Below, piece by piece: positions 14,981 through 61,182 of a stretch of DNA of 64,000 nucleotides. Within the stretch, counting starts at the first letter, position 1. Each line of letters begins with the position of its first letter. The position numbers and the translations under genes were made by a program. Below the pieces are notes generated by a model that was not told the origin of the DNA, ran no database searches, and saw only the letters and a list, made by a program, of their open reading frames with translations. Source of the stretch: Thermoanaerobaculia bacterium (GTDB lineage: Bacteria > Acidobacteriota > Thermoanaerobaculia > Gp7-AA8); NCBI GenBank assembly GCA_017883205.1, contig JADGNZ010000007.1, positions 1 to 64,000 of the forward strand, given 5' to 3'.

Positions 14981-15054
14981 CGGGGGTCGTGGGTCGGGAG
15001 TCGTAGGCATCGCAGGTTTTGCTCCGACCCCCGACTCCCGATTCCCGACCCCCG
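14981..15054. repeat. Heptanucleotide inverted-arm element (GGGGTCG/GGGAGTC type), intergenic rpmA-obgE
   Basis: CGGGGGTCGTGGGTCGGGAGTCG ... GGTTTTGCTCCGACCCCCGACTCCCGATTCCCGACCCCC. Confidence 0.85.
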
Positions 15055-47430: not shown

Positions 47431-47555
47431 GAAGAGTGAAGAGTGAAGGGTGAAGAGTGAAAAAGGAAGAGGAAAATGAAATTTGAAGAGTGAGGAGTCA
47501 AGAGGGAAGGTCCGGCTCTGTTTCACACTTCACTCTTCACACTTCTACCTCTTCC
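47431..47555. repeat. Heptanucleotide element (GAAGAGT)n/(ACTCTTC)n between peptidase and regulator genes
   Basis: GAAGAGT GAAGAGT GAAGGGT GAAGAGT GAAA ... TTTCACACTTCACTCTTCACACTTCTACCTCTTCCTC. Confidence 0.8.
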
Positions 47556-52151: not shown

Positions 52152-54107
52152 ATGTGCGGACTCACTGGATTCGTAGCGCCGTCGTCGAAAACTTCAGACG
52201 AGCTGGTTGGCGTTCTGCGGCCGATGTGCGAGGCGATTGCCCATCGCGGGCCTGATGATTCCGGCGAGTGGATCGATCCCGAGCTCGGGGTCGCCCTCGG
52301 ATTCCGGCGGCTGGCCATCATCGATGTTTCGCCGGCTGGGCATCAGCCGATGGTGTCGGCGTCGGGACGCTATGTCGTCACGTTCAACGGCGAGATCTAC
52401 AACTTCGAGGCGCTTCGGAAGGAGTTGCGTGAGGCTGGGCTGGCGCCGCTGTTCCGCGGGCATTCGGACACCGAGGTGATGCTGGCGGCGTTTGAGGCGT
52501 GGGGTGTGGAGGCGTCCGTTCGACGCTTCAACGGCATGTTCGCCATCGCGTTGTGGGATCGCAAGCTGCGCCGGCTGTACCTGATGCGCGACCGGATGGG
52601 CGTGAAGCCGCTCTATTACGGTTTTGCGGGACAGACGTTCCTCTACGGATCGGAGTTGAAAGCACTGCGGCGGCATCCGGACTTCGACCGGACGATCGAC
52701 CGCGGGGCGCTCGGTCTCTACTTTCGCTTCCTCTACGTGCCGGCTCCGTACAGCATTTACGAAGGTATCCGCAAGCTGATGCCGGGCACGATCCTCACGT
52801 TCGATCCGGCAACGAGGGAGATGGAGACGACGACGTACTGGTCGGTGTCAGACGCGGCGGCTCGCGGGATGGAGCATCGTTTTCAGGGCTCGGAGGAAGA
52901 CGCGTCGCGCGCAGCCGAGGAGTTGCTTCGCGACGCTGTGCGCATCCGGATGATTGCTGACGTCCCGCTGGGCACTTTCCTCTCCGGCGGTATCGATTCC
53001 TCGCTCATCACGGCGCTGATGCAGGCGGAGAGCTCCACGCCCGTTCGCACATTCACGATCGGGTTCACCGAGACCGATTACAACGAGGCTCCCTACGCCG
53101 CGGCCATCGCCCGTCACCTCGGCACGGACCACACCGAGCTTTACATGACGCCGGACGACGTTGTGAACGTCATCCCAAAACTGCCGGCCATGTACGACGA
53201 GCCCTTTGGCGACTCCTCGCAGATTCCGACGCATCTCGTGGCCATGCTGGCGAGGCGGCACGTCACGGTCAGCCTCTCCGGCGACGGCGGCGACGAATTG
53301 TTCGGAGGCTACACGCGCTACTTCATCGGCCAGCGCCTGTTTCGCCGTTTGGCTGCATTGCCGGTTTGGACCCGTCCGGCGATCGGGCGAGCGCTCGCTT
53401 CACTTTCACCGCGCGGGTGGGACCGTCTTCTCGCCCTCGGGCGTCCGTTGTTGCCGTCGTCGCTTCGGCAGGCGAATCCCGGACAACGAATTCACAAGGT
53501 TGCGCGCGTCATCGCGGCGAACGATCAGGATGCGATGTACTTCGAGTTGGTCTCCCACTGGTCGAATGTCGTCCTTCGGGCAGGCGATGCCGAAGCGCCG
53601 GTGACTTCGCAGGCGGCACGTCCGCGAATCACCGATCCGGTGGAGCGCATGATGTATTTCGACCAGATCTCGTATCTGCCGGACGACATTCTGACGAAGG
53701 TGGACCGGGCCAGCATGGCTGTGTCGCTGGAATCGCGCGAGCCGCTCCTCGACTACCGGCTCGTCGAGCTCGCCTGGACGTTACCGCTGTCGATGAAGGT
53801 GCAGAATGGCCAGGGGAAACGCGTGCTGCGTCGCGTTCTCGACCGCTACGTGCCGAAGGCTTTGATCGATCGCCCCAAGATGGGATTCGGCATTCCGCTC
53901 GAGTCGCTGCTCCGAGGCCGCCTGCGCGACTGGGCGGAGTCGCTCCTCGATCCTTGCACGATGCACGCACAGGGGTTCCTCGACACGGCAATGGTGCAGG
54001 CGCGATGGAAGGATCACCTCGACGGCAAAGACCAGTGGAAGTTCCACCTGTGGGGAGTGCTGATGTTTCAGCAATGGCTGCAAAGCGAATTGACAATGGA
54101 CAATTGA
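52152..54107 (+). CDS. asnB: Asparagine synthase (glutamine-hydrolysing), AsnB type
   Basis: MCGLTGFVAP; AIAHRGPDDSGEW; FNGEIYNFEALR; PLGTFLSGGIDSSLITALM. Confidence 0.95.
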   Translation: MCGLTGFVAPSSKTSDELVGVLRPMCEAIAHRGPDDSGEWIDPELGVALGFRRLAIIDVSPAGHQPMVSASGRYVVTFNGEIYNFEALRKELREAGLAPLFRGHSDTEVMLAAFEAWGVEASVRRFNGMFAIALWDRKLRRLYLMRDRMGVKPLYYGFAGQTFLYGSELKALRRHPDFDRTIDRGALGLYFRFLYVPAPYSIYEGIRKLMPGTILTFDPATREMETTTYWSVSDAAARGMEHRFQGSEEDASRAAEELLRDAVRIRMIADVPLGTFLSGGIDSSLITALMQAESSTPVRTFTIGFTETDYNEAPYAAAIARHLGTDHTELYMTPDDVVNVIPKLPAMYDEPFGDSSQIPTHLVAMLARRHVTVSLSGDGGDELFGGYTRYFIGQRLFRRLAALPVWTRPAIGRALASLSPRGWDRLLALGRPLLPSSLRQANPGQRIHKVARVIAANDQDAMYFELVSHWSNVVLRAGDAEAPVTSQAARPRITDPVERMMYFDQISYLPDDILTKVDRASMAVSLESREPLLDYRLVELAWTLPLSMKVQNGQGKRVLRRVLDRYVPKALIDRPKMGFGIPLESLLRGRLRDWAESLLDPCTMHAQGFLDTAMVQARWKDHLDGKDQWKFHLWGVLMFQQWLQSELTMDN

Positions 54108-54579
54108 CAATTGACAACGGGGTCACAGGAACCTGCGATCTCGCTCGCCGCTCGGACAGCTCGCCTCTCCTCCTGCGCCGGTCGGACTGAGATCGGGGGG
54201 TAGGTAGCTTCGGGTGCCCGCTGCCTTGCAACGACTGGCCACAACCGGTGGCGAGATATCCAAGATTTTAGTTGTCGATCTCGATAACGGTAGCGACAAT
54301 CTCGATATCGTTATCCAGAATCTGGAGATCTTCATCCAGAATCTGGATATCGATATCTAGGAATCCAGATATTGATATCGAGAATCTCGATGTCAATGGC
54401 AAGAATCTGGATATCGATATCTAGAATCCAGATATCGATAGCGAGAATCTCGATGTCAATGGCGAGAATCTGGATCTCGATAGCGAGAATCTCGATGTCG
54501 TCAGCGACTATTTCGATGATCTTGATGCTAAATTTGGTCGAGCGACCCGTTGTCAATTGTCAATTATCAATTGTCAATT
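54088..54579. repeat. Segment bounded by 33-bp inverted heptanucleotide arms (31/33 match) enclosing 21-bp array 3
   Basis: AATTGACAATGGACAATTGACAATTGACAACGG (54088-54120) vs reverse complement of 54547-54579. Confidence 0.85.
54262..54525. repeat. 21-bp-period array 3 (about 12 degenerate units)
   Basis: AGAATCTGGATATCGATATCT / AGAATCTCGATGTCAATGGCG / AGAATCTGGATCTCGATAGCG in 21-nt register; palindrome GATATCGATATC. Confidence 0.92.
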
Positions 54580-54591
54580 AGGACTGCCGCC

Positions 54592-55470
54592 TCAGCGCGC
54601 AAACGCGCGTGTGGCGATTCGCACCGGATACGCGGCGAAATAGCCGAGGTTGCCAGGGTCGTAGCGAAGGCTCTTGATCATGTGCTTGAAGAACTGCCGC
54701 GGCTGGTGCAACTGGAAATAGCAGCCGGCCAGCACGCGATGGATGCGCCCGTAGGAGTGATTGCGAAGCGACTGGACTGTTGGATCCAGGAATGCCTTCT
54801 CGAGCGCTCGCAGCATCGAAATCTCCATCCGGCCTACATTCAGATGAAGGCCGCCGCCGTGCAATCGATACGTGAGCAGAGGCTCGCGGATGTATCCGGC
54901 GCGGTAACGGACAGCGATGCGATAGCAGAAGTCCCAATCCTCCGACGGTTGCAGGCTTTCATCGTAGCCGCCGATCTCCGCGGCCACCCGCTTCGGCACC
55001 ATGATCCCGCTGCCGGGCGTTCCGATGACTTCGCGGTCGAGGCGCAATAGCTCCGTCGCCACCCACCCTTCCATGCCGTTCAGCGATACCGAGAGCAGTT
55101 TTCCGTCGCCGTCGACCGATTCGGCGGCGCAGTGAACGAGACCCAGGCTCGGATCAGCGACGAAACGCGCGATCTCACGCTCGAGGGACTGCGGCTTCAG
55201 TATGTCGTCGGAGTCGAGAAAGGCCAGATACTCACCGCGGGCCGCCGCAGCGCCGCTGTTTCGCGCCGCGCCGACTCCGCGGTTGTCCTGACGAATGACA
55301 CGGATGCGCTCGCCGTACGTGGCCAGGACTTGCGGCGTGTCGTCGGTCGAGCCGTCGTCGACGACGATGACCTCGATTGGACGATATGTTTGCGCGAGCG
55401 CGCTATCGATCGCATCGCGCAGGAACCGGCCGTAGTTGTACGTCGGGATGATGACCGAGACTGTATTCAC
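54592..55470 (-). CDS. Family 2 glycosyltransferase
   Basis: VSVIIPTYNYGRFLRDAIDSALAQTYRPIEVIVVDDGSTDDTPQVLATYG; GEYLAFLDSDDILKPQSLEREI. Confidence 0.93.
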   Translation of the reverse strand: MNTVSVIIPTYNYGRFLRDAIDSALAQTYRPIEVIVVDDGSTDDTPQVLATYGERIRVIRQDNRGVGAARNSGAAAARGEYLAFLDSDDILKPQSLEREIARFVADPSLGLVHCAAESVDGDGKLLSVSLNGMEGWVATELLRLDREVIGTPGSGIMVPKRVAAEIGGYDESLQPSEDWDFCYRIAVRYRAGYIREPLLTYRLHGGGLHLNVGRMEISMLRALEKAFLDPTVQSLRNHSYGRIHRVLAGCYFQLHQPRQFFKHMIKSLRYDPGNLGYFAAYPVRIATRAFAR

Positions 55471-59550: not shown

Positions 59551-61182
59551 TTGATGATTCTTGACCTGCTTCACATCCCCCTTGCTGTCGCCGCATGCTT
59601 TGCCCTGTGGAAGCTCTGGGCCTCGCTCGCAGGACGTGGCCGTGCATCGCTCATCATCACCTTCGGCTTTCTGATTCGCGCCTTCGGCGGCGAGATCCTC
59701 TTCTGGATCTCGTATCTGAAACTGCCGGTCGCGAGGTCGTTGCAACTCGGCGACGGCTTCTGGTTCTTTGCCGTCGACGGACCAGGGATGCTTGGCTACG
59801 CGCGGGAGTTGATCCCGGGTGGTCCGATCGCGCTCTTTCTGACCGGGCGAGTGATACCTTCGCATGCGTTCATCCAGGTGTTCACCGCGTTTGCCTGGAC
59901 ATTCGGAACGTTTGCGTCGGTCGCGATCCTGCTCAACTGTGCATCCTTTCTCGCCACGTGCGCGATCATCCTGCGGCTCGGCGAATACGGCGCGCGCGGT
60001 GAGCGACTGCGCCTCGTCGCCCTGGCGGCCATGGCCTTCGGCCCGGGGACGATTCTCTGGTCTCTGCAGCTTCTCAAGGACACGCTCTTCATTTTCCTGA
60101 TCGCGGCGATGATCGCCAGCTGTTTCTCCTGGCAGGAGCTGTGGCGCGGCGCCCTCACCAACTGGCGAAAAAAACTCTTCGCGGCCGGCGCGATGCTGGC
60201 CGTTCTGTACACGATGGCTGGCATTCGGTGGTACCTCGCCGTTTTCTTCTGGGGTGCATGGAGTGTGTTTGGACTACTTACAACACTGGCGGCCAGGAAG
60301 AAGCTCGTGGCAATCCCCGCCAATGTGTTCCTCTTCGTGCTGCTCGCCCAAGCAGTGCGCCTCGGCGGCGGCTACGACGTGCCGTCATCGATCCGGCGCG
60401 TCCTCGATCCGCGCCCTTCGATTGCCGCAACGTTCCGGCCGTCAGTCCTGACGAAGGACCTCAGCGTCCGACGCTACGGATTCGAAAAGACGCCTGGAGC
60501 GACCACGATCATTGCCGGCCGCGCGCTCGAGTCGAATAACCCCCATAGCAGCGAGACTGCGAAACAGCAGCCCGCGCAGCTCGCCTTGCCCGCGCCGTCC
60601 GTGCAGCCCGTGCAGCCCGCGCAGCCCGCGCCGTCCGCACAGCTTGCGCCGTCCGCCCAGCTTGCGCCGTCCGTGCAGCCCGCGCCGTCCGTGCAGCCCG
60701 CGCCGTCCGTGCAGCCCGCGCCGTCCGTGCAGCCCGCGCAGCCCGCGCAGCCAGCGCCGTCCGCCCAGCCCGCTTGGTCCGTGCAGCCCGTGCAGTCCGT
60801 GCAGCCCGTGGACAAGACGACAGACCAGCATCCCATCGCGAAGACGATGGCCGGGTTGGCGGCGGAGTTCCTTCCGCGCAGCATCGGCCAGGCTCTTGGC
60901 CTTCTCCGCATCGGCGGCGGACGGGGCTTCTGGCTTTTCGCCGAGCTCGATACGCTCGTCCTCGATGGCTTGCTGATCTTCTCGATCGTCGTCTGCGCGC
61001 ACAGTCTTCGCACGCACAGCCGCATAACGCCGCTCTTCGTGTTGCTGCTGATCGTCTTCCTGGCGACGGCCGGACCGCTGGCCTACACGGTCAACAATTT
61101 CGGCACGCTCTTTCGACTGCGCCAGATGCTGTACGCGATCCTCGCGTTCTTGCCGCTGACACTGCGAGCTCGCGCGAATTAG
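59551..61182 (+). CDS. Polytopic membrane protein of the exopolysaccharide cluster with a Pro/Gln/Ser hexapeptide repeat loop
   Basis: Many hydrophobic helices; internal (PSVQPA/PSAQLA)n between predicted TM regions; downstream of the glycosyltransferases. Confidence 0.75.
   Translation: MMILDLLHIPLAVAACFALWKLWASLAGRGRASLIITFGFLIRAFGGEILFWISYLKLPVARSLQLGDGFWFFAVDGPGMLGYARELIPGGPIALFLTGRVIPSHAFIQVFTAFAWTFGTFASVAILLNCASFLATCAIILRLGEYGARGERLRLVALAAMAFGPGTILWSLQLLKDTLFIFLIAAMIASCFSWQELWRGALTNWRKKLFAAGAMLAVLYTMAGIRWYLAVFFWGAWSVFGLLTTLAARKKLVAIPANVFLFVLLAQAVRLGGGYDVPSSIRRVLDPRPSIAATFRPSVLTKDLSVRRYGFEKTPGATTIIAGRALESNNPHSSETAKQQPAQLALPAPSVQPVQPAQPAPSAQLAPSAQLAPSVQPAPSVQPAPSVQPAPSVQPAQPAQPAPSAQPAWSVQPVQSVQPVDKTTDQHPIAKTMAGLAAEFLPRSIGQALGLLRIGGGRGFWLFAELDTLVLDGLLIFSIVVCAHSLRTHSRITPLFVLLLIVFLATAGPLAYTVNNFGTLFRLRQMLYAILAFLPLTLRARAN
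60590..60815 (+). repeat. 18-bp in-frame coding tandem repeat (hexapeptide PSVQPA)
   Basis: GTGCAGCCCGCGCCGTCC-type units repeated with substitutions (CACAGCTTGCGCCGTCCG etc.). Confidence 0.9.

Follow-up and report, generated by a model that had tools for sequence, protein, structure and literature searches.

The 492-bp segment between asnB and a glycosyltransferase gene in this Thermoanaerobaculia genome is probably one non-autonomous member of an S23/IVS-type family of mobile elements, armed at both ends with tandem heptamers, with an independent 21-bp repeat array in its loop. Complete members of such a family would carry an S23/IVP gene (four-helix-bundle protein, PF05635) between inverted heptamer arrays, and the AATTGAC family of this genome would comprise a single copy with S23, alongside about 20 short ones located between genes. 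The window analyzed covers the initial 64 kb of contig C82 (163,413 bp), part of a 6.37-Mb draft genome (G000), and the features of the locus are as follows (window coordinates).

52152-54107, + strand: asnB, asparagine synthase (PF00733, PF13522), with its 3' end inside the left arm
54088-54579: whole segment, 492 bp, filling the gap between the convergent asnB and glycosyltransferase genes
about 54088-54121, + strand: left arm, (AATTGAC)4 including one AATGGAC unit, then AACGGG
about 54122-54545, no strand: loop between the arms, holding the 21-bp array
54174-54277, + strand: array leader, also present in C2:185521-185849
54278-54507, + strand: array of 21-bp period, 10.9 copies (about 11), with a 63-bp higher-order unit
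about 54508-54546, + strand: array trailer; homology to the C2 copy runs as far as the right arm's inner edge
about 54546-54579, - strand: right arm, inverted, reading inward (AATTGAC)4 including one AATTGAT unit, then AACGGG
54592-55470, - strand: family-2 glycosyltransferase (PF00535), with its stop codon 12 bp beyond the right arm

The original prediction had described a segment of about 490 bp at this position, bounded by 33-bp inverted heptamer arms, and on both counts it was accurate: the domain matches (PF00733 and PF00535) and the convergent orientation agree with the genes named, the inverted repeats (54088-54120 and 54547-54579) match at 31 of 33 positions with two mismatches, and Tandem Repeats Finder calls a period of 7 in each arm (54088-54117 and 54550-54579). 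The motif AATTGACAATTGAC, allowing up to two mismatches, occurs seven times in the window, always within the arms, against 0.22 expected from shuffled sequences. When the segment is treated as RNA, the arms are paired with each other in the predicted fold (-224.9 kcal/mol, z = -9.4). The loop contains no match to S23. A known RNA was rejected as the identity of the array, since comparison with Rfam gave only miRNA and sRNA models that scored far under their gathering scores.

The closest relatives of the glycosyltransferase outside this genome are from Acidobacteria MAGs, and the best match carries the label gp7 AA8. The left arm encodes the last codons and the stop of asnB (ELTMDN*), and these follow the conserved C-terminus of the protein, indicating that the arm gave the gene a new stop codon. 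In genome G008 the orthologs of asnB (75% identity) and of the glycosyltransferase gene (66%) overlap by 83 bp, and those of G004 are only 41 bp apart, compared with 484 bp here; judged from these distances, the 492-bp segment was most likely gained relative to the relatives, and empty sites, which the original prediction had suggested looking for, were found in both genomes. These sites are about 75% identical to the present locus and therefore too diverged for the exact junctions to be read, which counts against the proposed element. Two genomes of the same genus, G001 and G002, were dropped as guides to the junctions because their best asnB matches (56–58% identity) have no glycosyltransferase gene beside them.

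The arms recur throughout the genome. Three tandem AATTGAC units, with up to three mismatches, have 60 matches per strand in G000, a reversed control had none, and both same-genus siblings also have none. They form 21 pairs, all in the convergent order AATTGAC...GTCAATT, all intergenic and near gene ends; the reverse order is seen only between the inner arms of the two pairs that flank an S23 gene. The inward end of most arms, on both sides, is AACG and usually AACGA. The left gene has its stop codon within the left arm in 10 of the 21 pairs, and the right gene within the right arm in 6. The segment at 54088-54579 shares with convergent heptameric pairs of the STRR/GGGAATC type its tandem heptamers, convergent arrangement and intergenic position. 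Its loop, at about 436 bp, is the longest of the 21, the others ranging from 34 to 273 bp, and none of the other 20 loops holds a 21-bp array, so that the suggested recurrence of the same arms around other arrays was not seen. Target-site duplications, also suggested, were not found either: there is none around the arms of the present segment (flanks CTGCAAAGCG and AGGACTGCCG), and over the 21 pairs there was one compared with 1.3 expected, a result that weighs against the proposed element.

The S23/IVP protein is known from 23S rRNA intervening sequences. On contig C48 of G000, a gene of this family (PF05635, 23S_rRNA_IVP; 8155-8460) lies between two AATTGAC pairs with the inner motif AACGA, and this copy (C48:7964-8649), the one S23-bearing AATTGAC copy in the genome, has the same termini as the segment under study. 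The solved-structure relative of its protein is 2rld. G000 has four S23 matches (C48, C66, C35 and C44), of which three adjoin heptamers, each of another type. Across the Acidobacteriota, inverted heptamers within 350 bp enclose 35 of 49 S23/IVP loci (the top match of each genome and 19 others picked from the match list), compared with 4 of 254 short genes in a control set taken from one genome, G000 (Fisher p = 5e-30). Most of the heptamer segments lie no more than 200 bp from the S23 gene, and the heptamer varies among loci. The remaining 14 loci were not enclosed by the criterion used, and these count against the proposed element. No relative of S23 was found in the viral contigs searched.

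Plasmid-borne S23 genes, mostly cyanobacterial, give a similar picture, with 9 of 16 enclosed by inverted heptamers, including one case in Azospirillum. They are often situated inside functional gene sets such as cas6/cas4, cas10/cmr3 and nrdB/nrdA; at the plasmid loci L267-L282, the CRISPR-Cas and nrdB/nrdA neighbors are apparently unbroken. Trichormus plasmid C carries an S23 element that is missing at the same place from relatives of about 97% identity, Nostoc 7120 plasmid beta among them. Picosynechococcus 7003 and 7002 (91% identity) likewise differ in the presence of an S23 element, with an empty site in 7002, and further related plasmids show the same kind of difference. The Trichormus insert has GTAAT on both sides, a sequence that is single in the empty site; this is a possible 5-bp duplication, although one AT-rich case is not proof of general duplication, and no clear duplication was seen at the remaining plasmid S23 junctions. 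The S23 copies of Nostoc 7120 plasmids alpha and gamma were rejected as guides to the ends of the element, because the segment they have in common is larger and reaches into a transposase gene.

The dispersed heptamer of each genome tends to match the arms of its own S23 gene. AGGGATC has 80/80 matches in G018 and few elsewhere, and TTAGCTC is common in G008 (19/26); the S23 gene of each genome carries the corresponding heptamer. AGTGCTG is common in G003, G004, G005, G010, G012 and G014, low in G013 and practically absent in seven others, and S23 genes with AGTGCTG were found in G003, G005, G010 and G012, with a variant in G014. An exception that counts against the proposed element is G004, with 102 matches to AGTGCTG, yet its one detected S23 gene carries GGACTGA. 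The heaviest heptamer loads seen were those of G010 (518/496 AGTGCTG matches) and of G013, which has about 391 matches per strand of a CAGTTAA-like heptamer and an S23 gene with CCGTTAA arms. In 400 kb sampled from ten genomes with S23 there were 60 heptamer segments, 16 of them paired, against 5 segments and no pairs in 384 kb from genomes without S23, a correlation confounded by phylogeny since most of the S23-bearing genomes sampled belong to one family.

G000 has other heptamer families as well. A sample of 903,617 bp from five of its contigs, with genes called by a simple codon-usage script, contained 189 seven-periodic segments, compared with 0–74 at any other lag between 5 and 13. A downstream inverted partner accompanies 71 of the 189, and in 66 of these 71 pairs the purine-rich heptamer comes first. 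For the families AGAGATC, GAAGAGT and GGTTGTC no S23 copy was identified in G000, which again counts against the proposed element. Further inverted heptamer pairs in the window itself (GGGAGTC, GGGTGTC, AGAGATC and GAAGAGT) are at 14984-15053, 33918-34148, 34021-34084 and 47431-47537.

The 21-bp array appears to have a different origin. The same sample holds 42 arrays of period 21, nearly all intergenic, and a family of small proteins without a Pfam match. An array lies within 2 kb of 11 of the 13 family members in the sample, always upstream. This looks like a second system of repeat plus protein that is independent of the heptamers. Matches to the small-protein family number 36 in G000 and 30 in G002, with few outside the genus; arrays and small proteins alike are concentrated in these two genomes, whereas the heptamer arms are spread over the whole taxonomic family and beyond. 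Members of the small-protein family occur in the window at 2-370 and 36161-36829 (both - strand), and in the sample also on C1, C2, C16 and C17. Four 109-bp direct repeats (315-751 in the window) extend over the start region of the gene at 2-370 and duplicate it, and 60588-60808 has 12 copies of an 18-bp tandem repeat within a predicted gene. As originally predicted, no small-protein gene adjoins the array at 54278-54507. Relatives of this array are found at C2:185521-185849, C17:29578-29735, C1:226959-227247, C89:24689-24799 and C81:22302-22691. The C17 relative is 844 bp upstream of a gene for one of the small proteins, and the array at 54278-54507 may therefore be an orphan of the array/small-protein system. 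The original prediction had also tied the 7-bp and 21-bp repeat classes together through 21 = 3 x 7, an idea that was rejected: across 40 arrays there is no autocorrelation at 7 or 14 bp (both 0.24, equal to background), and the relation looks like a numerical coincidence.

In the mechanism proposed here, copies would insert at gene ends, where an arm would often provide the stop codon. In the transcript, the arms would pair into a long stem like those that RNase III excises in 23S rRNA intervening sequences, and with a stop codon in the arm and a stem of this removable kind, insertions between genes would be tolerated; RNase III cutting of the stem may be what makes them tolerable. S23, a pentameric ring by homology, would bind the heptamer stem as RNA or as single-stranded DNA, and by recognizing it would promote copying in trans. 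To our knowledge, S23 has no recognized nuclease or transposase motif, which counts against such a role, and a second enzyme would thus be needed. The independent 21-bp array element would either have landed in the loop or have been there before the arms arrived. Extended to bacteria at large, the proposal would make dispersed heptamers the non-autonomous offspring of S23/IVP elements, with each S23 recognizing and mobilizing the copies that carry its own stem, in rRNA and in intergenic gaps alike; we put this wider proposal at about even odds.

A less probable account, though one that deserves some weight, is that nothing here is mobile: the arms would be home-grown simple repeats, produced by slippage and template switching and kept as terminator-like or RNA-stabilizing hairpins, and S23 would merely sit among them. 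Heptameric repeats are over-represented in the intergenic DNA of many bacteria (PMC4692102), and the gene-end position, the strong pairing of the arms, the absent target-site duplication and the very variable loops would all suit this origin. Harder to reconcile with it are the AACGA motif recurring at both inner ends, the presence of one heptamer at dozens of sites while it is absent in siblings, the strong enclosure of S23 genes, and the clean presence and absence of S23 elements in near-identical plasmids. Mobilization by a RAYT (Y1) transposase, as for REPIN/BIME-type elements, is very unlikely. The paired inverted short repeats in gaps resemble REPINs and G000 has 15 matches to Y1_Tnp (PF01797), but the arms are tandem heptamers with no internal palindrome of the REP type, and this reading was rejected because Y1 counts do not track AATTGAC counts (G011 has two Y1 matches and 33 forward AATTGAC matches; G018 has eight and none).

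The original prediction favored a single cassette in which arms and array move together as one non-autonomous unit. The array does fill most of the loop, its homology goes no further than the right arm's inner edge, and three more of the sampled arrays (C1:287275-287887, C2:159926-160862 and C16:51575-52517, from the 0.9-Mb sample) are bracketed by heptamer arms. The four bracketed arrays, this one included, have arms of four different heptamer families, however, the C2 relative at 185521-185849 has the leader and trailer in common with the array of the window but no arms, and 20 of the 21 AATTGAC pairs are without an array. In gaps of at least 300 bp, the excess of heptamers beside arrays over length-matched gaps was only marginal (14/39 against 22/110, p = 0.053). 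Arms without array and array without arms are the very pattern that the original prediction had set as the test of its cassette, which was rejected on these grounds and is left with a slight chance, little above that of the RAYT explanation. What stands of the predicted non-autonomous element is an added segment with recurrent termini; the array as its cargo does not. Arms and array probably arrived in separate events, since elsewhere each occurs without the other.

The heptamer-armed S23 element preferred here is closest to the 23S rRNA intervening sequences with an S23/IVP ORF in Coxiella and Leptospira, which are alike in their terminal inverted repeats, long stem and, in complete copies, S23; the present copies differ in lying between protein genes rather than in an rRNA helix, and most are without S23. 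In Coxiella, tandem heptamers precede the S23 gene of the intervening sequence, which has a 28-bp terminal stem that is cut by RNase III (PMC4990558). Apart from these heptamers, no published link between heptamers and S23 was found in the open-access literature. The GGGAATC pairs of Xanthomonas, and in the same class the heptamer repeats of Nostoc and Calothrix, resemble the arms in being tandem heptamers arranged as intergenic, close, convergent inverted pairs; the Xanthomonas authors reported generally no association with mobile elements and did not mention S23 (PMC4692102), whereas the arms described here bracket S23 genes and mark insertions. REPIN/RAYT systems share the short paired inverted repeats spread across gaps and a helper gene lying between copies of those repeats, but the repeats here are heptamer arrays instead of REP hairpins, and the candidate helper is a four-helix bundle instead of a Y1 transposase. 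The segment is also MITE-like, with terminal inverted repeats, a length under 600 bp, no gene and, as expected of a MITE, orthologous sites free of the insert (G008 and G004), and a Porphyromonas gingivalis MITE is described as holding a minisatellite (PMC4596501), an internal tandem array like that of the segment. It differs from MITEs in having no target-site duplication and no identified transposase partner.

Both the heptameric repeats and S23/IVP have lacked a function, and can now be seen as the termini and the gene, respectively, of a single family of insertions. An early description of the repeats came from the cyanobacterium Calothrix, and the link to S23 suggests an explanation for a repeat class that has gone unexplained for decades. 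The family spans Acidobacteriota, Cyanobacteria and Azospirillum, its components recur in the intervening sequence of Coxiella, and the questions of what the heptamers are and what S23 does become testable together. If the proposal holds, it would define a class of very small mobile elements whose helper has about 120 residues and for which no transposase is known.
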